Assembly: GCA_903834925.1 (NCBI GenBank)
Contig: CAILLA010000092.1
Coordinates: 1 to 54,108, forward strand
DNA: 54,108 bases
Direction of reading: 5' to 3'
Source: an uncultured Schlesneria sp.
GTDB taxonomy: Bacteria; Planctomycetota; Planctomycetia; Planctomycetales; Planctomycetaceae
Shown here: positions 41,567 through 53,138 of the stretch, in pieces
How the letters are laid out: each line of letters opens with the position of its first letter
Position numbering within the stretch: position 1 is the stretch's first letter
The notes under the pieces: model-generated
Told to the model about the DNA's origin: nothing
Databases searched by the model: none
What the model saw: only the letters and a program-made list of their open reading frames with translations
Made by a program: the position numbers and the translations under genes

Positions 41567-41639
41567 TCCCCGATAGCTCAATCGGTAGAGCGAGCGGCTG
41601 TTAACCGCTAGGTCCTAGGTTCGAGCCCTAGTCGGGGAG
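41567..41639 (+). tRNA. tRNA-Asn (GTT)
   Basis: A complete 73-nt cloverleaf: acceptor TCCCCGA pairs with TCGGGGA; D-stem GCTC/GAGC; anticodon stem AGCGG/CCGCT with loop CTGTTAA, anticodon GTT at 41600-41602; T-arm CTAGG-TTCGAGC-CCTAG. CCA is not encoded. Its 3' part is the attachment site of the element that follows. Confidence 0.97.
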
Positions 41640-41642
41640 CTT
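41620..41642 (+). repeat. attL core (tRNA side)
   Basis: 23 bp, ttcgagccctagtcggggag followed by ctt, from the T-loop of the tRNA gene through its 3' end. Identical to 49327-49349. Recombination here keeps the tRNA gene intact. Confidence 0.92.
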
Positions 41643-41776: not shown

Positions 41777-42838
41777 ATGTCGAAGAAACTGCCATCTTAT
41801 CGTTTGCACAAAACCAGTGGTCGAGCTGTCGTCACAATCGACGGTCGAGACTGCTATCTCGGGCAATTCGGTTCCGAGGAATCTCGCAGGCGTTACGGTG
41901 AATTGATCGCCAAGCATTCCGCAGGCGTTACCGTAGACCCGTTTAAGTCGGCACCGGGGCAACCTGGACTCACAATCAACGAACTGTGCTTGGCATTCCT
42001 GCGACACGCTGAACGTCACTACGTGAAGAATGGGGAAGTGACGGACGAGGTACAATGTTTCAAGTGTGCCATCAAGCCGTTGGTCAATTTGTACGGATCG
42101 ACCACGGCATCGGAATTCGGCCCGTTGGCATTGAAAACGGTTCGACAGGCGATGATTGAGAAAAAGTGGTCTCGGAATTTTATCAATAAGTCGGTCTCTC
42201 GAATCCGCAGTATTTTCCGGTATGCCGTTGAGAATGAACTTTTTCCCGGCGCTGCCGTTCGCATCGTTGAGTTGAAAGCCGTTTCTCCACTGTTGAGTGG
42301 TCGCACGGAAGCGGAGGATCGACCAGCACGTCATGTTGTGCCACAAGCCGACATCGAAGCGGTCAAGGCCATAGTGCCACAACGGACGCGCGATCTGATC
42401 GACCTGCAATTATTAACCGGCGCTCGTCCCGGCGAATTGCTGATGTTGACCGGCGGAATGATCGACCAGTCGAAAGTTGTCTGGGTTGCCACGCTGAAGG
42501 ATCACAAAACCGCGCATCGTGGAAAGACTCGCGCCATCGTGTTCGGGCTAAGGTGCCAAGAGATTCTAAAGCGATATCTCACCGACGATCCGGCACAGCC
42601 GTTATTCACGTTCACCCGGAAGTGGTACGGCATGGCAGTGGGTTTCGCCTGCGACAAAGTAGGCGTTCAACGGTTCACACCGCACTGGCTCAGACATAAT
42701 GCGGCCAGTCAACTTCGTGAGGATCACGGCCTAGACGTTGCACAAGTCATGCTCGGCCATTCATCGGCGAACATGACGCAATTGTACGCTCACCTGGACA
42801 TCGCGAAAGCTGTCGAAGTGGCACGCATCCACGGTTGA
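41777..42838 (+). CDS. Tyrosine recombinase integrase
   Basis: 353 residues. The N-terminal 60 residues form an arm/DNA-binding region, the middle a SAM-like core-binding domain, the C-terminal half the catalytic domain with a full set of active-site residues: Arg217 (TGARPGE), His303 and Arg306 (HWLRHNAA), His328 (LGHSS) and nucleophile Tyr337 (QLYAHLD). It recombines the tRNA-Asn 3' end (attB) with the element's attP. AAAGGAG lies 10 bp before the ATG. The gene lies 105 bp inside attL, reads away from the tRNA and is followed by two small genes that may share its transcript. Confidence 0.95.
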   Translation: MSKKLPSYRLHKTSGRAVVTIDGRDCYLGQFGSEESRRRYGELIAKHSAGVTVDPFKSAPGQPGLTINELCLAFLRHAERHYVKNGEVTDEVQCFKCAIKPLVNLYGSTTASEFGPLALKTVRQAMIEKKWSRNFINKSVSRIRSIFRYAVENELFPGAAVRIVELKAVSPLLSGRTEAEDRPARHVVPQADIEAVKAIVPQRTRDLIDLQLLTGARPGELLMLTGGMIDQSKVVWVATLKDHKTAHRGKTRAIVFGLRCQEILKRYLTDDPAQPLFTFTRKWYGMAVGFACDKVGVQRFTPHWLRHNAASQLREDHGLDVAQVMLGHSSANMTQLYAHLDIAKAVEVARIHG

Positions 42839-42920: not shown

Positions 42921-43094
42921 ATGACATCAGATAAGGCAAAGTCATTGCAGAGCATTTCACAAGCTCGATACGCGGCCCTATTGTCGATCATTGCCATCCT
43001 AGACAAGCTCGAAGCCACTGAGAACGACACCGAACACGGGGACGGTTCAGAAGCTCGCGAATGGATCATCGCACAATTGAATGATGAGGAGTGA
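42921..43094 (+). CDS. Small protein of unknown function
   Basis: 57 residues, mostly helical, acidic C-terminal half (ATENDTEHGDGSEAREW). No known family. CAAGGGA lies upstream of the ATG. It starts 82 bp after the integrase gene and ends 4 bp before the HTH gene, so all three may form the integration operon. Confidence 0.65.
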   Translation: MTSDKAKSLQSISQARYAALLSIIAILDKLEATENDTEHGDGSEAREWIIAQLNDEE

Positions 43095-43098
43095 AGCC

Positions 43099-43335
43099 AT
43101 GAAAAACGAACCCAAACCGATCCCGCATCGTTTGTGCGGTATTCCAAAGGGGCTGATCTGTCGCTCTGCCGACGTGAAAGCCGAAATGCGTATTTGTCAC
43201 GTCACATGGCAACGATGGCGCGATGAAGGACTCGACGCCAGATACTTGCCTGGATCAGATACCGAATTTGTTTCGACGGACAGTCTACATCAACTCTTTG
43301 AAGCCGCGCCGAAGTACGTGAAGAAATCGGTCTAA
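43099..43335 (+). CDS. Small HTH protein, excisionase candidate
   Basis: 78 residues. The centre (SADVKAEMRICHVTWQRWRDEG) reads as a MerR/AlpA/HTH_17-type winged helix in which a helix is followed by TWQRWRDEG, and a terminal helix (TDSLHQLFEA) follows. Such small proteins next to tyrosine integrases are often recombination directionality factors or repressors. GAGGAG is 8 bp upstream of the ATG. The assignment as excisionase is inference from position and fold. A terminator follows at 43363. Confidence 0.65.
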   Translation: MKNEPKPIPHRLCGIPKGLICRSADVKAEMRICHVTWQRWRDEGLDARYLPGSDTEFVSTDSLHQLFEAAPKYVKKSV

Positions 43336-43396: not shown

Positions 43397-43546
43397 GTCG
43401 TTCTTTGGTCACAAGCCCGAACAAGAAATCAAAAGTAGTAGGGTTTCCATACTACTCGTAACAAACAGGACTATCCTTGGCTCGATTCGGCTTGTAAATC
43501 AGCACCCGTGACATTTAAGCACGTTCGATCACAGGGGGGATTTACG

Positions 43547-43849
43547 ATGGCGATTGACTGCGACACTGAGGATTTGATTCGGTTCAATGAAGCTCGTTCA
43601 GCGTTTCCTGGACGCGGTAGCATCGCGCTGCAGACGCTGCACCGATGGCGATTACGCGGGGTTCGAGGCGTCAAATTGGAGACCTGTCTTTGTGGCGGTT
43701 TGCGAATGACGAGTCGTGAGGCGATTTCCAGATTTCTTGCAGCTCAGAACGCTCCGAAGGACCAGCCAGCACTGGCACCGATTACCGCCACCCAACGCCA
43801 ACGCCAGAACGCTGCGGCCCGTCAAGCATTGGCCGAAATCGGCATCTAA
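43547..43849 (+). CDS. DUF1580 protein
   Basis: 100 residues. The pattern DTEDLIRFNEA..GRGSIALQTLHRWRLRGVRGVKLET with a following SREAISRFLAAQ matches DUF1580 (PF07618), a small planctomycete HTH-like family (my recognition from the TLHRW..RGVRGVKLE core). It probably binds DNA and may regulate the element or help replication. AGGGGGGA is well placed before the ATG; a TTG-type earlier start at 43508 is less likely. It is the first gene after the terminator, so a promoter should lie between 43397 and 43546. Confidence 0.8.
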   Translation: MAIDCDTEDLIRFNEARSAFPGRGSIALQTLHRWRLRGVRGVKLETCLCGGLRMTSREAISRFLAAQNAPKDQPALAPITATQRQRQNAAARQALAEIGI

Positions 43850-43921: not shown

Positions 43922-44473
43922 ATGATTCGATTCGTAAGTCTACTGTTCGCCGCGCCGAAGACTCTCGCCACGGCACACGCAAGGATTTCCAGCGAGATTG
44001 AGAAGTTGCAGACCGATTGCAACGAACTTGCTCAACAGGTTCACACCTTGAAAGCCGATTCCGCCAAAGGTTTCAAGGTATCAAGCGCTCACGACGTTCA
44101 ACAAAAACGATGGCAGCACCTGGAACGCGAAATTGCCATTCGCCACGAGTGTATCGAGTACCTGGAAGGACCCCACAAGCAACACGCCGCAGCGCTGTCA
44201 GAGGAAGCAATCAAGAAGATACCAGAGATTGAAACCGAACTTCGAACCGGCTTTCAACGCATGGGCTTTACCGTCGATCCAGACGCCGAAGATTGCATCC
44301 CCACGACGTTCTTCAGATATCACCCGAGGTATCGCCAAGCCGTTGCCGAAGCTGATTCTGCTGTCGATCTTGCTGGCCGGATTTCCGATCTGGTGAATGA
44401 ACACCACGTCGCCATCGGCCAAGCCGAATCCCGGATGGAAACATTTCGGAATAAGACACTGCAACTGGCCTAA
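43922..44473 (+). CDS. Coiled-coil protein of unknown function
   Basis: 183 residues, almost wholly helical with heptad-like spacing in two blocks (about 20-75 and 140-175); no membrane segment or signal peptide. It resembles structural or accessory proteins of mobile elements, but I know no family. AAGGGG upstream of the ATG supports expression. It begins 72 bp after the DUF1580 gene and is followed after 44 bp by the next gene, suggesting one operon. Confidence 0.7.
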   Translation: MIRFVSLLFAAPKTLATAHARISSEIEKLQTDCNELAQQVHTLKADSAKGFKVSSAHDVQQKRWQHLEREIAIRHECIEYLEGPHKQHAAALSEEAIKKIPEIETELRTGFQRMGFTVDPDAEDCIPTTFFRYHPRYRQAVAEADSAVDLAGRISDLVNEHHVAIGQAESRMETFRNKTLQLA

Positions 44474-44517: not shown

Positions 44518-44907
44518 ATGAGAGTCCAACCAAACCGACTTGATCAGATCGTACATGCTGCCGAAATGGTTTCGAAAAATGCGAACCCTCTACAGTTCGG
44601 CGCTGAGGCGGCAAGAACTCAAGCCGTCAGTGCGGCCCTTGACGAGTACAAACGGATTCGAGATGAGCACACTCCACTACAGCCGCAAGGATGGCGATTG
44701 CACCGACCCGGCAGTGACGCGGACCATTTCTACAACGTAATCGAACGGCAGGCGGTTCAAAATATCTTCGGTGCGTTGATGGGATTGTCTCCCACGCCAC
44801 CAATTCCGCCAGTGGCACCGCCAGAGGTTCCCAAGAAGCCGCTGTCATATCTGGAATCAATCCAGAAGCAACTGGATCGACCAGAACGAAAGGTGATTTT
44901 AACGTGA
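44518..44907 (+). CDS. Protein of unknown function with Pro-rich segment
   Basis: 129 residues: a helical N-terminal half, then a Pro-rich linker near residues 92-108 (SPTPPIPPVAPPEVPKK) and a basic C-terminus. No known family. AAAGGAA lies upstream of the ATG. The stop overlaps the start of the next gene (GTGA), so translation is coupled. Confidence 0.7.
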   Translation: MRVQPNRLDQIVHAAEMVSKNANPLQFGAEAARTQAVSAALDEYKRIRDEHTPLQPQGWRLHRPGSDADHFYNVIERQAVQNIFGALMGLSPTPPIPPVAPPEVPKKPLSYLESIQKQLDRPERKVILT

Positions 44908-45131
44908 TAACGCGCGAAACATTGAACGACGTGGAAAAGTGTACGACTCGGATGCACCGGCGGATTCAGGCGAGGCTTAACAAGATGCAATACAGCCGAG
45001 ACCCAAACCGCGACTACAGAACAATGGAAGCTGGCATCGAGATCGACCGTAAAAAGATCGAAGAATTGGACCTGCTTGTCGCCGCTGAAGACGTTGAGTC
45101 TGTCCGGGCATTTATGCGATCAATGTTTTAA
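44904..45131 (+). CDS. Small helical protein, GTG start
   Basis: 75 residues, highly charged and helical (DRKKIEELDLL), no known family. The GTG at 44904 overlaps the preceding TGA and AAAGGTGA lies 8 bp upstream. A hairpin (45147-45175) directly follows and may end this transcript before the ATPase gene. Confidence 0.65.
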   Translation: MITRETLNDVEKCTTRMHRRIQARLNKMQYSRDPNRDYRTMEAGIEIDRKKIEELDLLVAAEDVESVRAFMRSMF

Positions 45132-45146
45132 CCGTATCAAAACGAA

Positions 45147-45175
45147 AACGGCACCAGTGACAAGCTGGTGCCGTT
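45147..45175 (+). terminator. Hairpin, terminator or attenuator before the ATPase gene
   Basis: A perfect 11-bp stem AACGGCACCAG / CTGGTGCCGTT with a 7-nt loop. Only a weak T-rich tail follows (cccaatttctt), so partial termination that limits ATPase expression is as likely as a full stop. Confidence 0.8.
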
Positions 45176-45212
45176 CCCAATTTCTTCACCCCCGCCAAGA
45201 GGTACACTCATT

Positions 45213-47483
45213 ATGCCGCTGATGGCCGTTTCTGACAAGACAAATTCACGTAAAATTCTAAAGAACGTCAAGAAAACGTATTGTGCCGATGATGTTCTGC
45301 TGCCAGTATTGGCAGACGATGACCGGACGCCACTGTTCAGTGGCATCGTCGATGGCGCCGAGGTCTACGTCACCGGCGGCAGTTCACCAGAAGCCGTTGT
45401 TCGAACCCTGATTGAACACGGGGCGTCAAACGTACGTGAATATCTTCATTGCCACTGTATCGAACCCGTCAAGGAATCTCTGCCGCCGTTCGATGGCATC
45501 GCATGGACCGTCGATCAAGTGGATTACGACAAGCAAACTAACGAATGGACCATCACCGAAAATGTACGATCTGAGATTGTCGAATCCTACCCGGCAGGAG
45601 TCGCCACGGCACTAATCGCCCACCAGATCCAAACCGGCCTACCCGACCCAAAAGCATTTGTAACCCGCCGATACGTTACCCTGAAATTCTCAGACACCGA
45701 CCGTGCGAAAAGTTGCCAAGCATGGCTCACTTCAAAATACAAAATTCCGGCCGGCGCGTTGATCGTATCGGACGATGAAACCTGGATCGTGTACCCGTTC
45801 GAGTTTAACCCGACGCCAGAAGATTTGATCATTGCCAATGGACGGGAAAAACTCGCTGAACGACAGGCACCGATCAGAAAACGACTTCAGGAGGTTTCCA
45901 GCTTTCCAATTTTCGATGGCACCGATGAAGCTGACCGGCTCCTGGCAGAACTCGTTCGATTGTCTGCCGAATCTGGACGCGAAATTGATGAGGCGTTCGA
46001 AACCCTATGGTCAAGCGCCGAACCCCTGGACGACGACCAGCAATATCGAATCGACCACGGGGATTCTCGGCACGTCCACCGATTCATGGAGGCCATCGCG
46101 AGCCGTTTCGGAATCGACGTGGAAGAATCGCTCCGTCTGGATGTGTCGATACCACTGCCGATCATCGGATCGGCAACCGAAATCGTAATCGACCCGGATT
46201 CAAAAAATTGGTTCACACCAGTAACGGAAAAAATGCTCGAACAAATTGCCGATGAACTCTATGAAGAATTTTCCTTGTGGAATCCCGGTGGATTGATCCA
46301 GCAGATTATCAATCACAATCTTCGGACCTGTTACAAGCCACAGCCAGAGATGGCAATGTTCGGGGGGCTGTCTGCTTTCTCAGTCGTGACCGGGCAGAAG
46401 GTACAGGACGAACGAGGAATCCGGCCTAACATCATGGCGGCGGGGTTAGCCGATTCCGGCAGTGGCAAGGAACATGCCCGCCAAGTCAATAAAATGATTC
46501 TCACTCTCGCGGGTGGTTCTCGTATGCTCTCAGATAACCTTGCGTCTGACGTTGGACTCCTCAAACAGATGAGCCGTTCGCCAAGCTCGCTGATCCAACT
46601 GGATGAACTCGGCAGGATGTTGGCGACCCTGGACGGAGCCAGCAAGAATCCGCATCTCTTCAAAATCAAGACGATGCTCATGCAGCTATTTTCGAGTGCA
46701 GGAACAATCTTCTTAGGTGCCAATCATGCGGACTCAAAAAATGATGTCACCGTCCATAATCCAAATTGCACGGTTTTCGGAACAACCGTTCCTGGCAGTT
46801 TCTTCAGTTCGTTGGATAAGGAATCACTGTCTGACGGGTTTCTAAATAGATGGCTTGTGTTCGAGGCATCAAATAACGACCCGGACCCGACCGACGATCC
46901 AGCCAACATTGAAGACGTTCCACCAGAACTGATTGAATCAATCAAGTGGTGGCTCGCATACCAACCAGCCAGCAAGGAAGGACTGCCGCAGCCAGCACGC
47001 CGATTGATTGCCACGGACGCAGCCAAAGCCGAATATAAGAAACTGGAAACCGCTGCCCGAAGCAAGCACCGATCAGAAGCTGACCGGGGTACTCAAATCT
47101 GGTCCCGATGTTACGAGTACGCTCGCAAGCTCGGACTGCTCCACCAGCTTTCCCTGGATCGTGACGCGACCACAATATCGGTAGAGTCGGCCCGATGGGG
47201 TTGTAAGCTCGCTATGAAGCTGACCAGCCGAATACAGGAACTGACTGAAGAACACATCTCAGACGGCCAATTTGACGCCACTGGCAAGAAGCTGGTTCGT
47301 TTCATCAAGCTGGCGGGGGATACTGGCAGGAGCCTATCGCAAATTTCCCGCCATGTACGGAATCTCCCCCGTCGTGACGTTACCGAATGCCTGGACAAGC
47401 TGATCGAAGTCGGCGACATCGTGAAGGAGCCGCGACAAGCCGCAAAAGGACCATCGACGATCATCTACCGTTCAATCGTCTGA
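45213..47483 (+). CDS. DUF3987-like ATPase, probable replication protein
   Basis: 756 residues. The N-terminal 300 residues look like a primase-associated or toprim-poor region; the central ATPase/helicase core (about 370-620) has a P-loop ADSGSGKE with Lys419 and a Walker B segment IQLDELG (Asp464-Glu465), then the GTTVPGSFFSSL and LSDGFLNRWL arrangement seen in DUF3987/phage-type helicases. The C-terminal 70 residues look like a winged helix (SLSQISRHV...DVTECLDKLIEVGDI). The residue after the P-loop Lys is Glu, where Ser/Thr is usual. It probably drives replication of the element at the 9-bp array that follows. AGAGGT precedes ATG 45213; the GTG at 45168 lies inside a hairpin and is rejected. 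Confidence 0.8.
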   Translation: MPLMAVSDKTNSRKILKNVKKTYCADDVLLPVLADDDRTPLFSGIVDGAEVYVTGGSSPEAVVRTLIEHGASNVREYLHCHCIEPVKESLPPFDGIAWTVDQVDYDKQTNEWTITENVRSEIVESYPAGVATALIAHQIQTGLPDPKAFVTRRYVTLKFSDTDRAKSCQAWLTSKYKIPAGALIVSDDETWIVYPFEFNPTPEDLIIANGREKLAERQAPIRKRLQEVSSFPIFDGTDEADRLLAELVRLSAESGREIDEAFETLWSSAEPLDDDQQYRIDHGDSRHVHRFMEAIASRFGIDVEESLRLDVSIPLPIIGSATEIVIDPDSKNWFTPVTEKMLEQIADELYEEFSLWNPGGLIQQIINHNLRTCYKPQPEMAMFGGLSAFSVVTGQKVQDERGIRPNIMAAGLADSGSGKEHARQVNKMILTLAGGSRMLSDNLASDVGLLKQMSRSPSSLIQLDELGRMLATLDGASKNPHLFKIKTMLMQLFSSAGTIFLGANHADSKNDVTVHNPNCTVFGTTVPGSFFSSLDKESLSDGFLNRWLVFEASNNDPDPTDDPANIEDVPPELIESIKWWLAYQPASKEGLPQPARRLIATDAAKAEYKKLETAARSKHRSEADRGTQIWSRCYEYARKLGLLHQLSLDRDATTISVESARWGCKLAMKLTSRIQELTEEHISDGQFDATGKKLVRFIKLAGDTGRSLSQISRHVRNLPRRDVTECLDKLIEVGDIVKEPRQAAKGPSTIIYRSIV

Positions 47484-47491
47484 CGCTGCTC

Positions 47492-47782
47492 TACTCTGCC
47501 GCCATTTCCTACTCTGCCGCTACCCTGCCCAACGATTTGGGCAGGGTAGTTTGCATTAAAAACACTGTAATTCATGCGAAAAACGTCGTGTGAAAACTAC
47601 TCTGCCTACTCTGCCGTATGTCCCTGATACCACGGGAGGGAAAACAAGACCAAAACACATCCGGCAGAGTAGGCAAAGTAGATTTATAATTATGTTTTAC
47701 ACATAGAAAATAGCCTTTTTTACGAAAACTACTCTGCCGGAATGGTGCGCATAGTACCGGCAGAGTAGGCAGAGTAGTTTTT
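47492..47782. repeat. 9-bp iteron array, candidate replication origin
   Basis: TACTCTGCC occurs exactly at 47492, 47510, 47598, 47607 and 47730; its complement GGCAGAGTA at 47663, 47759 and 47768; near copies at 47521 (TACCCTGCC), 47540 (GGCAGGGTA) and 47672 (GGCAAAGTA). Copies form tandem pairs (47598/47607; 47663/47672; 47759/47768) in opposite orientation. The block GAAAACTACTCTGCC begins at 47592 and 47724 and recurs inverted at 47768-47782. An AT-rich stretch lies between (about 47680-47725). A 12-bp stem (47521-47532/47537-47548) may also end ATPase transcription. Confidence 0.85.
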
Positions 47783-48241
47783 GAGACATGGTGGCCATCG
47801 GCCACCGATCCCACTGGCAACCAGACAGCCAACCGACAAGACGACAAAAATATCACCGTATTTTCTGATCGTGCTGGTTTCCATTATCGGCTCGGATGAT
47901 TACCTGAGCAGCCAAGCAAGAATCGGTGACCCACGACCACCCGCAGATGGCAACCAATGGGAAAAGCCTTATTTTATAGGCGTTTTCCCGTGTTTCGCAT
48001 GCAAGATAAAAAAACCATGTGAAAGAATGTGATTTTAGGATAGCTTGTCAAGTGTATACAGAGTAACGACTTGCGGCAGTAGGGACCCGTTAAGGCGGGG
48101 GATTGTTAAGGGATTCCCTCTGTCTTTTCGTCAAACGGGGTTTTGTTCGCAATGAATTTCGATTGATCCGTTTGCAGTGTGTTTACGTTATCATATGTGA
48201 CTCCTTAGGTTTGAAGTGATTTTTCATTCGGAGCTGGTTAA
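47783..48241. other. Noncoding part of the element before the cargo gene
   Basis: 460 bp with a 7-bp hairpin GGTGGCC/GGCCACC (47790-47806) and a short AT-rich stretch near 48000-48030 but no clear gene. A frame at 47781-48032 has a TTG start and no motif and is rejected. The promoter of the cargo gene probably lies near 48170-48230; I cannot place its boxes with confidence. Confidence 0.5.
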
Positions 48242-49147
48242 GTGGGCAGGACGCCAAAACGGAAGCAAAAACCGCAGCCACTGGCAAATGTAACACCACC
48301 ACCTTTGCCATCCCGCCGGGCGGTCGTTTTAAAAAAACTGGCTGATAACTCCCACTACATAAGCACGTGGGGGATGCTACTTGTAGCAATCGCCGCGCTT
48401 GTTCCCGCGTACGTTGGGATTGTTTTTCAGTGGCGGCAAATTGAGGATTTAAAACGGGGTAGCAACGACAGTGACAAGCACCTAAAGCTGCTCGCTGAGC
48501 AAGTCAAACAACAACGCGACTTGGAAATCCAGCCACGTTTAATGGCCGAAGCCTCAAGAAATCGTATTAAGCTCACGGTACCGGTACTCAACGAGGAATT
48601 TAAGCGCAACCCTCTCGCGCCTGTAACTCAATCGGACGGAGTGAAACGCATGGCGTTTGTTCCTAATACTGATGATTTCATTCGAGTGCGAAATGTAGGG
48701 CGGGGGCCCGCCTATAACGTTATTGCGACGACAATATTTGACAGGACTGTGACCAAGACCAGAGAGATTTCCAAAGCGAACTACTTGGACGAACACACAA
48801 GAAAAAACCCACCTATATGCCTCAAAATGATTCCCTCGGGAGAGGCGGTTTCTTTCGATCATTTTCATTATCAGATGGATTTGCAGGAGGACGTACAATG
48901 CCTTATTGGAAATTTCGGACTCTACTGCATTGACGAGGACGGCAACGAACTTACCTATGTTCAAAAATTTCGGTACACGGTTAATTTTGTCGATGATGCA
49001 CCATACGCATTGATGGAAATTGATTCTCCGCGACTTGGAGATCGCACGAAATCAAACCCACAGACAAAACGGTCAGTCGAATACGTCGCGGACTATTTCC
49101 GCCGAATTTTGAAAAAAGAGGCCGAGAAACAAGCTGAACAAAAATAG
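48242..49147 (+). CDS. Membrane-anchored cargo protein of unknown function
   Basis: 301 residues starting with GTG, GGAG 9 bp upstream. A basic, Pro-rich cytoplasmic N-terminus (MGRTPKRKQKPQPL) leads to one membrane helix at about 41-62 (GMLLVAIAALVPAYVGIVF), a short coiled-coil (DLKRGSNDSDKHLKLLAEQV) and a beta-rich domain with a RVRNVGRGPAYNV segment of a kind common in membrane-tethered proteins of unknown role. The C-terminus is a charged helix (FRRILKKEAEKQ). It is the last gene inside the element, after the origin-like array, where accessory or defence genes often sit. No function can be assigned. Confidence 0.75.
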   Translation: MGRTPKRKQKPQPLANVTPPPLPSRRAVVLKKLADNSHYISTWGMLLVAIAALVPAYVGIVFQWRQIEDLKRGSNDSDKHLKLLAEQVKQQRDLEIQPRLMAEASRNRIKLTVPVLNEEFKRNPLAPVTQSDGVKRMAFVPNTDDFIRVRNVGRGPAYNVIATTIFDRTVTKTREISKANYLDEHTRKNPPICLKMIPSGEAVSFDHFHYQMDLQEDVQCLIGNFGLYCIDEDGNELTYVQKFRYTVNFVDDAPYALMEIDSPRLGDRTKSNPQTKRSVEYVADYFRRILKKEAEKQAEQK

Positions 49148-49326: not shown

Positions 49327-49349
49327 TTCGAGCCCTAGTCGGGGAGCTT
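49327..49349 (+). repeat. attR core
   Basis: Identical to 41620-41642. Here the tRNA gene is reduced to its last 13 bp of the T-arm and the acceptor, so the site is not a functional tRNA. Confidence 0.92.
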
Positions 49350-49395
49350 AAGCCGCAAGCCATTTATCACATTTGGTTTGCGGCTTTTTGTTTTT
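49350..49395 (+). terminator. Original tRNA-Asn terminator, displaced
   Basis: AAGCCGCAAGCC (49350-49361) pairs with GGTTTGCGGCTT (49375-49386), one mismatch, followed by TTTGTTTTT. It starts directly at the end of attR, so before integration it followed the tRNA gene. Confidence 0.88.
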
Positions 49396-49694
49396 GCGAT
49401 CAGAAATCAGACGTGAATTCTGTATTGCGAGTACTTTAGACGCACAATCAATCACGTCGCGAGGTTCGAGTCCCAATGTTCGGCGACTCTCACTCGAATC
49501 TTGCCCCACGAACTACGGTTTCTCTTTGGAGGATTGCACCAGGACGGTGTCGTCGTACCTCTACACGTCGTGGAGCTGCAAATGGTGAGTTCATTCTAAC
49601 TGATTGACGCTATTAAAATTGCGCCAATTGGGGAACTTTTCGGGCGTTCATTGCGTCCGATGTACGAATGCACTTGCGGGAGTGTGGAAAGATC
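49396..49694. other. Gap between the element and the WD40 gene
   Basis: No gene is visible. A fragment near 49460-49485 (gaggttcgagtccc) looks like the T-arm of a tRNA, but its stems do not pair, so it can only be a remnant. The WD40 promoter should be here. Confidence 0.4.
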
Positions 49695-52600
49695 ATGATC
49701 CGAATTGCCATCACAGGTTCGAAGATGACCAGTTTCTTCAAATGTTCGAAGTGGTTTTTCATGATGATCTTGGCGATGACGCTCAAAGCGGCAGCGTCGG
49801 CTCAGTCGGGCGAACGACTCGTTGTTTCGAATTCAGGGAATTCCGGGGTGGGTCTGTGGCGCATAGATTTTCATCCCAACCAGGCCGTTCGAACCTACGA
49901 GATCTACGACGACGGAACGGTGACATTCGTGGAAACGGGTTGGATCGGCAATTTGATCCCCGTGAATCTGCCGAATATCCGGGGACGATGGACTGTTCGA
50001 TTCAAAGACGAGAACGAAGGCATCACCGAAATCATCACGCAGATCGCTGATGGCCGATTGCTCGTGGAACATTTCAATCCAGCCCAGACCCCCTTACCCC
50101 GGGTGGATCAAATTGGCATCGGAGAGCGACTGGATGTAAATCGTCCCGGACAAAAAAGTTCGCCAGACGCGCCGACGGATTTGAACTCCGATATCAGCCG
50201 ACGTGTCAACGCGGTCGCCGACTTGCCACAGCGGGCAATCGATCGATATGGAGATGCCCGCTTGCGGCATGCAGCTCCTGTGACGAGCGTCGCCGTCTCG
50301 CCGGATGGTCGGTGGATCGCCAGCGGTAGTTTGATGGGCGAACAACGAATTTGGAACGCCGAGACCGGAGCGTTGTTGCACACTTTGGAAGAAGCCTATG
50401 GCAATTATGTTTCACTAATGGCGTTTTCGCCGGATGGTCAATCGCTGGCGGCATTCAAGGGGCGATTGATCTGCTGGGATCCTGCGACTGGTCAGAAAAA
50501 GTTCCACTTCGAAGATTACGGGTTTCCACTTGATCTCGCGTTTTCCCCGGATGGCAAGACGCTGGCGGTCGCAGCGATGAACACCGAAGATGTTGTGCTC
50601 TATAACACCCAGACCGGCCAAATTCGGAGTAAGTACAGCGGACACGCCAAGTATGCAACGTCCGTGGCGTATTCTCCCGACGGTCGATGGCTGGCCAGTC
50701 TGGATCAAGCGGGCACGCTCTTTCTGCGGGATTTAGGAACCGAAAAGACCACGCAGTACTCTGGTCTGCACGGCAAACTCAGTTTCAGCCCCGACTCAAA
50801 CCGGCTGGCGATCAACACTGGTCCCACGGTGACGCTGTACAAGCTCGACGACGCCGGGCTGGTCACCCCCGCCGAGCGAAATTTAGACCACGGTCTGTAC
50901 GTTAAGACATATTTGCGCACTGCCCGATTCTCGGCCGACGGCGAGCGACTTTCGTGGGGCGAACGCGTATGGGATTTGGCTACGGGCAAGCCGTGTGTCG
51001 AGCATAACGGCATGATGAACGGACCGGCGGAATGGTTTCCCAACGGAGATCGACTCGTCTCAGCAGGCGCTGACGGCATTGTGAGGGTAATCAATGCCCA
51101 CAGCGGCGAGACGCTGCTCCCGGCGCCCGAACCCAAACGCGTCTTCAATCAACTCCTTAGCCTTCAATCGCGACTTGATATGCCGCACAATTGGCCGCAA
51201 TTGGGACATCTGCAAGTGGCATTGGTAGGGTCGCACTCTGGCATACTGGCGTTTGTACGATCGGCCGACCAGCGCATCACAATGGTCAACACGCGGTCAT
51301 CTCGTGAGGGAGAATTCGAGCGAACCGTCTGGCCGATCGGAAACATCGCCAAACGGATTCCATTCAGCGGCTTCCAATTGGGACGGAATGGATCGCAGAT
51401 CGTCACAATGGTCGACAATCGTTTGGAAGTTTGGTCGGTGACCGCCGGCGAAGGTCCGCGATTCGTCCTACATGAGCTGACGACCTATGACATGCTGCAA
51501 CCCGAGAAGCCATACCAGTCCATGACACAGTTCGAGATTTCTCCGGATGGATTGGAAGTCGCAGCACTCATCGCGGAAAATGTGATCGTCCGGCACGAAC
51601 CCGATCCGGACCGAAAGGAAGCGGCTCAGCGACAGATCTTCAAGGTCTGGTCGCTCGGCAGCGGCGAAGAAACGCTCTCCTTGACAGGCCCCGTCCGACG
51701 AGTCAACGACCCCACAATGGGGAAGTTCTCTTTCGCCCACGATTCGATTTGGCACAACCGCCCCGATGGCACCCGGCCTAAGTTCTTGGCGACCGGAACC
51801 ACAACGTTGGACGACCCGGACTCGGAACCGAATCGGCGGCACTTCAAACTGATTCCCGGCACGGATGGCAGCGGCGATTTCGGCACGATCAAGTTCTTCA
51901 GCCCGGATGACAAATGGATGCTCACCGAACGAATCGGCGGCGACAAATTCGCGACCGAACGCGCGGTGCGCGATCTGACCCAACCGGGATGCCCGATTCT
52001 GTGGCACCCGGAAGGGGACCAGTTTGCCGTCAGCCCAGACGGACAATGGCTGGCCTGTTGCGAGAGCGGTTGGGACAAACAGCAAAAGAAATTAATGCGA
52101 GTGTCCGGAGACCCGAGCACGTCCGAAAAACTACAAAAAATGATCGGCGGTCCGGACCAATCGTCGACGATCGTGATCCGTGTCGCCTCGACGGGAAAAC
52201 AATTGATCAGTTTCTCCGGACATCTGGGGCCTATTCACTCGGCTTACTTCTCGCCAGATGGGCGATGCCTGGCGACGGCCAGCGGAGACGGAACCACCCT
52301 GTTCTGGGACCTGACGACGTTCGAAGGCAAAGCTCCGGAACCGATGACGACGGACGATGCCAAGCAACAGGTCTGTGATCGCTTCCTTGCCGAGGATGAT
52401 CCGGATCCTCTTCGTACGTTCTGGCGGTATGTCCTGGATGCCGATCTGAATGCCGACTTACAGAGGCGACTGGCCGATTTACTGACTTCAAAATCTGATC
52501 CTGGCTTAATTGTGCGCCGCGCCATCGCAGTCGCGGAATATCGCGGGCTTCCCGATTCGGTCCAGCAACTCAAGGCGCTGGCGGACAACCCGTGGATTTC

Positions 52601-53138
52601 CCGGGAACATCAGTCGCTGGCCCGTCAGAGCCTGGCTCGGCTCGCTCACCGTTCGGAATCAGTCCCGGAGGGGGAAGCAATCCAAGCCCCCAGCGTCAAA
52701 TTTCACGCCTATTGGATGGTGCGTCCCGACCAAGAAGGAGGAACCGGATATCGCAAGCTACTGATCACGCGCGGCCCTGTCGCGCAAATGGCGCAGCGGA
52801 CGCTCAACTGGCCGCGTCCAACACCAGCAGATCATGAGCCCGCTCCAGTGCTGGATCGCGAGGCTTTCACATTTGACACATATGGCGATGATTGTCTCTG
52901 GGGCCGAGCTTTTGGGACGGTCGACTCGTTTGGCACGTTCAACGTGGCACGAAGGCAACTGACGATGAATGAGAAAGCCTACGACATCAGCGACTGTCCG
53001 ATCGATGTGGTCCTGCGTTTGCTCGCCAACCCACTGGGAACCGCTCACCTGCATCGCCCCAATCACCCCTTGAGCGGCGCGAAGGAAACCGCACGGGCCT
53101 TTGAGTGGCTATTGAAGGAACAACAAACTCTGCAGTAA
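49695..53138 (+). CDS. Secreted WD40-repeat protein
   Basis: About 1147 residues. Starts at 49668, 49695 and 49725 are possible; 49695 is chosen because GGAAAG precedes it, and 49725 would begin exactly at a signal peptide (FMMILAMTLKAAASAQ). An N-terminal 120-residue domain precedes WD40-type beta-propeller repeats (VAVSPDGRWIASGS, MAFSPDGQSLAAF, LAFSPDGKTLAVA, VAYSPDGRWLAS and, near the end, AYFSPDGRCLATASGDGTTLFWDL). A helical domain of about 200 residues follows, then a C-terminal region. WD40 proteins are scaffolds; in planctomycetes secreted ones are common and often lack kinase parts, as here. The EamA gene follows after 160 bp. Confidence 0.88.
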   Translation: MIRIAITGSKMTSFFKCSKWFFMMILAMTLKAAASAQSGERLVVSNSGNSGVGLWRIDFHPNQAVRTYEIYDDGTVTFVETGWIGNLIPVNLPNIRGRWTVRFKDENEGITEIITQIADGRLLVEHFNPAQTPLPRVDQIGIGERLDVNRPGQKSSPDAPTDLNSDISRRVNAVADLPQRAIDRYGDARLRHAAPVTSVAVSPDGRWIASGSLMGEQRIWNAETGALLHTLEEAYGNYVSLMAFSPDGQSLAAFKGRLICWDPATGQKKFHFEDYGFPLDLAFSPDGKTLAVAAMNTEDVVLYNTQTGQIRSKYSGHAKYATSVAYSPDGRWLASLDQAGTLFLRDLGTEKTTQYSGLHGKLSFSPDSNRLAINTGPTVTLYKLDDAGLVTPAERNLDHGLYVKTYLRTARFSADGERLSWGERVWDLATGKPCVEHNGMMNGPAEWFPNGDRLVSAGADGIVRVINAHSGETLLPAPEPKRVFNQLLSLQSRLDMPHNWPQLGHLQVALVGSHSGILAFVRSADQRITMVNTRSSREGEFERTVWPIGNIAKRIPFSGFQLGRNGSQIVTMVDNRLEVWSVTAGEGPRFVLHELTTYDMLQPEKPYQSMTQFEISPDGLEVAALIAENVIVRHEPDPDRKEAAQRQIFKVWSLGSGEETLSLTGPVRRVNDPTMGKFSFAHDSIWHNRPDGTRPKFLATGTTTLDDPDSEPNRRHFKLIPGTDGSGDFGTIKFFSPDDKWMLTERIGGDKFATERAVRDLTQPGCPILWHPEGDQFAVSPDGQWLACCESGWDKQQKKLMRVSGDPSTSEKLQKMIGGPDQSSTIVIRVASTGKQLISFSGHLGPIHSAYFSPDGRCLATASGDGTTLFWDLTTFEGKAPEPMTTDDAKQQVCDRFLAEDDPDPLRTFWRYVLDADLNADLQRRLADLLTSKSDPGLIVRRAIAVAEYRGLPDSVQQLKALADNPWISREHQSLARQSLARLAHRSESVPEGEAIQAPSVKFHAYWMVRPDQEGGTGYRKLLITRGPVAQMAQRTLNWPRPTPADHEPAPVLDREAFTFDTYGDDCLWGRAFGTVDSFGTFNVARRQLTMNEKAYDISDCPIDVVLRLLANPLGTAHLHRPNHPLSGAKETARAFEWLLKEQQTLQ

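Follow-up and report, generated by a model that had tools for sequence, protein, structure and literature searches.

A 9-bp repeat array directly behind the rep gene is a probable replication origin of a small integrative element in Schlesneria

The window, by which we mean the whole 54,108-nucleotide stretch of DNA analysed (contig CAILLA010000092.1, from an uncultured planctomycete of the genus Schlesneria), contains a 7.7-kb element bounded by a tRNA-Asn gene and perfect 23-bp direct repeats. Between the repeats lie genes for an integrase, a DUF1580 protein and a replication protein (Rep), several ORFs without an assigned function or family, and, behind rep, a dense array of short repeats (Table 1). 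From its sequence, the DUF1580 protein is probably a small helix-turn-helix protein, and its sequence and place together suggest a role like that of an excisionase or AlpA. By eye, the ORF between the array and attR (48242-49147) has a probable membrane segment near its N-terminus. A 1,156-aa WD40 repeat protein is encoded at 49668-53138, just outside attR.

Table 1. Coordinates of the element, its genes, the repeat units and the regions compared with a related element (C140) of the same genome.
Feature	Position in window	Strand	Remarks
tRNA-Asn gene	41567..41640	+	integration target
attL	41620..41642	+	23-bp direct repeat at tRNA 3' end
Tyrosine recombinase (integrase)	41777..42838	+	PF00589, 5.6e-16
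Small ORFs around the DUF1580 gene	43081-43335, 43922-44473, 44518-44907	+	three, without assigned function
DUF1580 protein	43508..43849	+	PF07618, 2e-12
rep	45168..47483	+	771 aa
Replaced block, window versus C140	46355..47807	+	helicase half of rep and whole array
Exact units, plus strand	starts 47492, 47510, 47598, 47607, 47730	+
Exact units, minus strand	starts 47663, 47759, 47768	-
One-change units	47521 (+), 47540 (-), 47672 (-)
Units 1 and 2	47492..47518	+	TACTCTGCC, exact; 18-bp step
Units 3 (+) and 4 (-)	47521..47548		both TACCCTGCC; arms of a perfect hairpin
Units 5 and 6	47598..47615	+	tandem pair, 9-bp step
Units 7 and 8	47663..47680	-	tandem pair; unit at 47672 with one change
AT-rich stretch	47681..47729		proposed unwinding element, between opposed unit clusters
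Unit 9	47730..47738	+
Units 10 and 11	47759..47776	-	tandem pair, 9-bp step
DNA behind the array	47808..48125	+	84% identical in an element with a different array
301-aa ORF between array and attR	48242..49147	+	without known family; possible cargo
attR	49327..49349	+	identical 23-bp direct repeat

On the left flank, 14 of the 15 genomes of the genus (the element's own included) have some match, and, among the matches listed, the ends lie at or close to the 3' end of the tRNA gene. These ends fit the element boundary, but conservation of the tRNA alone would produce the same pattern. For the right flank (49340-50340), matches were limited to 35 bp and to two of the other 14 genomes of the genus, and no empty site was seen.

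The array begins nine nucleotides after the rep stop codon (the gene ends at 47483) and, in a scan of the 54-kb window, comprises 11 units of TACTCTGCC at 47492-47776, eight exact and three with one change. Three pairs stand in tandem at exactly 9 bp (47598/47607 on the plus strand, 47663/47672 and 47759/47768 on the minus strand), and the orientation alternates from cluster to cluster. The pair formed by units 7 and 8 is inverted relative to that of units 5 and 6, at a start-to-start distance of 65 bp, and together these pairs form a long stem when folded as DNA (z -7.1). The hairpin of units 3 and 4 is possibly a degenerate pair or a terminator-like stem. The 20-nt bins with the highest AT content (0.85 and 0.75, at 47681-47720) lie between the inverted pair 7/8 and unit 9. 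The initial annotation, made from the letters of the window, is borne out in its count of five plus three exact copies and three with one change, in its description of tandem pairs of alternating orientation around an AT-rich stretch, and in its placement of the array directly behind an ATPase gene. Of the span that it gave, 47492-47782, the start stands and the end is corrected to 47776, where the last unit stops.

Outside the array, the window holds two one-mismatch copies of the 9-mer and no exact copy. The whole-window total of 13 copies compares with 5.35 expected (sd 2.56) and was reached by none of 100 shuffles; likewise, in a 400-nt stretch spanning the rep stop codon and extending behind it, the most frequent 8-mer, counted with up to one mismatch, is present 12 times, a number that 0 of 100 shuffles attain. 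Across the 9.02-Mb host genome, pairs of exact units separated by 0-14 nt are present at three sites, each of them inside the array. Close tandem copies are thus confined to it, which, as far as such close copies go, speaks against the concern, raised initially, that the 9-mer might be equally frequent throughout the host genome.

The 771-aa Rep has no Pfam match and no sequence match to a solved structure (PDB), and its residues 362-760 match phrog_3022 (‘DNA primase’, 5.7e-57). Among 48 aligned Rep-family proteins, the window protein included, 42 match DUF3987 (PF13148) and 40 match Prim-Pol. Rep itself matches neither, and its helicase half is homologous to DUF3987 family members. The name DUF3987, under which the initial annotation placed the element, therefore fits the family but has no Pfam match in the window protein to go with it. 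An AlphaFold2 model built from the 48 sequences is confident over approximately residues 360-770 (10-residue means of 81-98, except 68 at 601-610) and has an AAA+ core followed by a helix-helix-helix-strand-strand winged helix at about 701-769. The best Foldseek matches of the model are MCM and ORC/Cdc6 chains, with ClpX lower (best E 6.9e-7, with low TM-scores of 0.1-0.4). The prediction for the C-terminal half of Rep is thus an AAA+ helicase of MCM/ORC type with a winged helix at its end.

Nearly all of residues 1-345 fall under pLDDT 60 in this model, a separate model of the N-terminal domain made with three close relatives has a pLDDT of 43.9, and no primase fold was identified for the domain in these low-confidence models. 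Residues 1-345 (45168-46202) have no detectable family, are 74-81% identical in two close relatives, and occupy the place of the Prim-Pol match in 40 of the 48 aligned proteins.

The same genome carries a second, related element (C140), with identical 53-bp direct repeats at its two ends and a tRNA-Leu gene at the left repeat. By blastn, the DNA of the two elements is 80% identical over 45041-46354, does not align at all over 46355-47807, and is 84% identical over 47808-48125. Protein identity per 50 residues is 0.66-0.92 and drops to 0.33-0.54 from residue 400, and in a forced alignment the bins of the array score 0.27-0.35 and the next bin 0.95. The element of another genome (G511) has the C140 version of the block: helicase residues 400-699 are 92-100% identical between C140 and G511, with only 57% identity from residue 750 on, and the array (loci L035 and L063) is 99-100% identical per 100-nt bin, compared with 0.68-0.94 in coding bins. 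The origin may be under strong constraint, or an exchange may have taken place recently; either would give two arrays so nearly identical. For the small ORFs at 43922 and 44518, the G511 versions are 90% and 72% identical to those of the window, versus 52% and 42% for those of C140, and G511 still has the C140 array; the array is not followed by these two genes. Where the helicase half is similar between two of the elements, so is the array, and where it differs the array differs too, all within a single block. By eye, a motif, GGGAGGGAAAAC, is shared by the DNA that separates the opposed pairs in the window (47616-47662) and in C140, and is present more weakly in the element of a further genome, G503.

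The initial annotation had raised the question of whether the unit changes with the ATPase or with the DUF1580 protein. The helicase half of the ATPase does swap with the array as one block. However, integrase identity is 49% between the window and C140 and 99% between C140 and G511, and DUF1580 identity is 62% and 88%, respectively. Since these two proteins follow the array in their differences, the three elements do not separate them from the ATPase, and the statistics across 69 elements (below) are weak. The case for the helicase half of Rep comes from its adjacency to the array, from block boundaries common to both and from the relatives in phages and plasmids, rather than from elimination of the other two proteins.

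The C140 element also has a copy in another genome of the genus (G514, locus L062), with 99.9% identity across 7,686 bp. That locus has copies of the 53-bp repeat as well, but no called tRNA gene. Near-identity between copies whose flanks do not align suggests recent movement, with the caveat of cross-binning for the shared element, since one of the copies comes from a metagenome assembly.

Relatives of Rep are encoded in 44 of 392 genomes of the phylum and 32 of 170 of the family (own genome counted in both), in 144 of 50,697 phage records and in one of 72,556 plasmid records. Of 228 loci, 220 have a stop codon inside, 202 have at least 350 nt behind the gene, and 110 remain below 85% protein identity. 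This non-redundant set includes the window; near-duplicates were dropped before counting, among them G514 and G511, which are represented by C140; loci L035 and L062-L083 were left out of the counting set. Repeats were scored as the best 8-mer, with one mismatch allowed, against 100 shuffles. Behind the gene they are significant in 58 of the 110 loci at the strict cut (≤ 1 of 100 shuffles) and in 70 at the looser one (≤ 5), compared with 2 and 5 of 110 inside the gene and 4 and 8 of 101 further downstream. This statistic on the non-redundant set supersedes one based on exact 7-mers, by which 37 of 52 loci with enough DNA had passed at ≤ 10 of 200 shuffles. At these loci, related elements thus do have an array behind the ATPase gene, and the unit varies by element: it is TTTTGACC in C140, and the other types include AATAATCG, TCCGTCAA, ACCTATTG, GGTGAAA and CTTCTTTC.

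No significant array was found at the looser cut in 40 of the 110 relatives. Some of these, by eye, have fewer, degenerate repeats, and in others, L012, L015 and L021 among them, an ORF seems to follow the gene immediately. At the looser cut, five of the 11 named phage and plasmid loci are significant, although for L094 this depends on a low-complexity word, and six are not; the clearest arrays in this group are those of phiAxp-1 and of plasmid pC of Spartinivicinus.

The spacing of the units recurs as well. Same-strand neighbours within 30 nt are 8-10 nt apart in 154 of 320 cases across all 110 loci and in 133 of 264 across the 70 significant ones. The control counts are 8 of 77 inside the gene, 11 of 86 further downstream and 3 of 35 for shuffled versions of the 70. 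For clusters in opposite orientation, the distance is 55-95 nt in 120 of 269 cases (all 110) and in 98 of 197 (the 70) (controls: 50 of 210 in the gene, 54 of 189 further on, 22 of 101 shuffled). We rely on these counts with their controls because the medians depend on the gap filter: 74 and 66 nt are obtained only for gaps filtered to 25-110 nt, and the unfiltered median is 58 nt (57 nt for all 110). AT-richness does not differ between gaps of the ‘> then <’ and ‘< then >’ kinds (Mann-Whitney p 0.33). Of the 70 loci with a significant array, 57 have their AT maximum 80-200 nt behind the gene, and of the 40 without one, 30 do. This position is as common without an array, so AT content lends no independent support across the family.

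Across 69 elements, the unit sequence appears weakly linked to the winged helix (partial r 0.18, matched in 0 of 1000 permutations), a value that still includes kinship between elements; at core identity below 0.35, the unit/winged-helix value is 0.229 (23 pairs) versus 0.207. In the Phycisphaerae-type relatives L110, L114, L138 and L183, a CTCTCT-rich tract is seen by eye beside the inverted pair, and it may be a conserved origin feature.

The initial annotation had proposed a likely origin or Rep-binding site, and it is comparison, through the arrays of relatives and the block replacement, that makes this the best-supported reading. We conclude that the array is probably the replication origin of the 7.7-kb element, bound and used by the element's own Rep and exchangeable with its helicase half. 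Excision of the element at tRNA-Asn would precede replication. Rep would then use the winged helix at its C-terminus to bind the 9-bp units, its MCM/ORC-like AAA+ helicase would assemble on the opposed tandem pairs, and the AT-rich stretch at 47681-47729 would be opened for replication to start. The unit sequence would set the specificity of Rep for its origin, and the helicase half and the array may pass between elements as one cassette. One DNA helical turn is about 10.5 bp; the 9-bp step is shorter than this, which would allow a putative head-to-tail dimer on each pair. An origin served by its own initiator is ordinary in principle. The novelty lies in the setting, in how often the arrangement recurs within the family, and in the block replacement.

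Plasmid iterons often serve in both replication initiation and control, and if Rep bound the array for control, array and helicase half would be replaced together just as seen. The array could be a Rep-binding control region, for copy number, incompatibility or autoregulation, with replication starting elsewhere. We consider this unlikely, given that the array lies behind rep and not in front of it, that the window has no second cluster of the unit, that there is AT-rich DNA inside the array, and that the same position is a functional origin in PICIs and pRN1, as described in passages of PMC6092414 and PMC4234260.

That the inverted units close the rep operon as transcription terminators or RNA hairpins is very improbable. 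Units 3 and 4 do pair as a perfect hairpin located 37 nt past the stop codon, and all four folded stretches (two of them overlapping) have z of -4.7 to -7.1 as DNA, yet hairpins need no tandem 9-bp copies, and such copies recur in relatives. There is no Rfam match, and no terminator was called on either strand of 47484-47800 by a scan for loops of 3-8 nt, a range that excludes the two long stems. Units used in integration or excision, as arm sites of the integrase or sites of a DUF1580 excisionase, are a further alternative: such sites are often repeats, the DUF1580 protein resembles a small HTH protein, and both proteins change in the array's direction across the three elements. Distances of 1.6 kb and 5.9 kb, however, separate the array from attR and attL, respectively, and it adjoins the helicase half of rep and is replaced with it in one block. 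Clear arrays also occur in four of the 11 named phage and plasmid relatives of Rep, with no integrase or DUF1580 gene annotated in the stretches of DNA retrieved around these four, and we regard integrase or excisionase sites as quite improbable.

The preferred reading, an origin bound by Rep, has counterparts in several known systems. The alpha protein of phage P4 is a TOPRIM primase and in this differs from Rep. According to passages of PMC4234260, its winged helix binds origin repeats, much as we propose for the window. In PICIs, the origin follows rep immediately on its 3' side and has AT-rich DNA between two sets of iterons (passages of PMC6092414). The same layout is seen in the window, where the array is immediately 3' of rep and opposed clusters lie on either side of 47681-47729, and like PICIs and SaPIs this is an integrative element with an integrase and a replication gene. 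It differs in an initiator of the DUF3987/phrog_3022 lineage, in its planctomycete host and in units arranged as tandem opposed pairs. Among the seven element ORFs scanned, none was recognised as a terminase, capsid or interference gene, and we do not class the element as a PICI.

PICMI satellites of Vibrio are 6.1 kb long, lie at fis, encode AlpA and have 17-bp direct repeats, and the model that defines them comprises an integrase, AlpA (PF05930/PF12728), a DUF3987/DUF5906 Pfam hit and the fis locus (passages of PMC10803314). The window element resembles them in its small size (7.7 kb), integrase, small putative regulator, DUF3987-type replication protein and short direct repeats (23 bp). It shares the integrase with the model, but its DUF1580 protein has no AlpA match, its Rep has no Pfam match, and its site is tRNA-Asn. 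Those passages of PMC10803314 describe no PICMI origin and do not use the word ‘iteron’. In SCCmec, the C-terminal domain of Cch2 binds repeats downstream of its own gene (passages of PMC7581432). Cch2 is thus similar as a helicase with a C-terminal DNA-binding domain and direct repeats behind its gene; its 5-nt iterons, separate polymerase proteins and different helicase family set it apart. DUF3987 has been predicted to be a helicase of mobile elements (passage of PMC5862659). A search of an open-licence library listed no paper on planctomycete satellites with an integrase, a primase and a replication origin, and the papers listed by a further search there do not mention DUF1580.

The initiator of the pRN1-type plasmids of Sulfolobus is a primase-helicase-winged-helix protein, and an essential origin lies directly 3' of its gene (passages of PMC4234260 and PMC3869888); the predicted helicase and winged helix of Rep and the place of the array behind rep resemble this. 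In pRN1, the origin is an essential 100-nt stem-loop directly behind orf904, described as free of iteron structure, and the origin sequence varies between the plasmids with conserved flanks, according to passages of PMC4234260. Divergent origins between conserved flanks are a further likeness to the window, and the stem can be read as an inverted tandem 9-bp pair. The differences are the SF3 helicase, the archaeal host and a single opposed pair, compared with several clusters in the window.

In three of five pRN-family plasmids (pRN1, pRN2 and pHEN7), 9 is the best period of 5-13 in the stem arm, which can be written as two 9-bp steps sharing TGTCCA (pRN1), TGTCAC (pHEN7) or GGAC (pRN2). The chance of a period-9 score as high in shuffled arms is 0.036 for pRN1, 0.007 for pRN2 and 0.0001 for pHEN7, and 0.18, 0.035 and 0.002 if any period of 6-12 is allowed; the pHEN7 value is the least independent, as its arm was lengthened to 23 nt by hand. 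The stem arms of these three plasmids start 79-81 bp apart, within the 55-95-bp range common among the opposed clusters of Rep relatives. In pSSVx, period 9 is not the best in its best stem, whose correspondence to the others is assumed, and the stem search found none in pDL10. BPP-1 and BIP-1 are named for a 3' stem-loop in PMC4234260 (passage), and behind the BPP-1 gene there is no tandem 6-mer repeat at a spacing of 7-12. The passages of PMC4234260 and PMC3869888 do not mention a 9-bp tandem period in the origin stem.

These comparisons are suggestive of a pRN1 stem made of an opposed pair of 9-bp sites. A broader proposal is tentative, and we hold it to be possible rather than probable: that many bacterial and archaeal replicons of a self-priming or self-loading kind, a large class, share one origin design, with opposed tandem 9-bp pairs, mostly 55-95 bp apart from start to start, directly behind the initiator gene, read by the initiator's C-terminal winged helix and exchangeable as a cassette with the helicase half. 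The pRN1 stem-loop would then be one such pair and not a structural signal, and the structural origin of pRN1 would become an ordinary binding-site question.

If the array is the origin of the window element, the DUF3987/‘primase’ class would gain a predictable origin, an element-specific unit of 8-10 bp directly behind the gene, and planctomycete vectors, the origins of PICMI-like satellites and many phage origins would become directly testable. The block replacement suggests that replication specificity may change in one step, with the rest of the element kept. Such a switch of specificity could explain the coexistence of two related elements in one Schlesneria genome.
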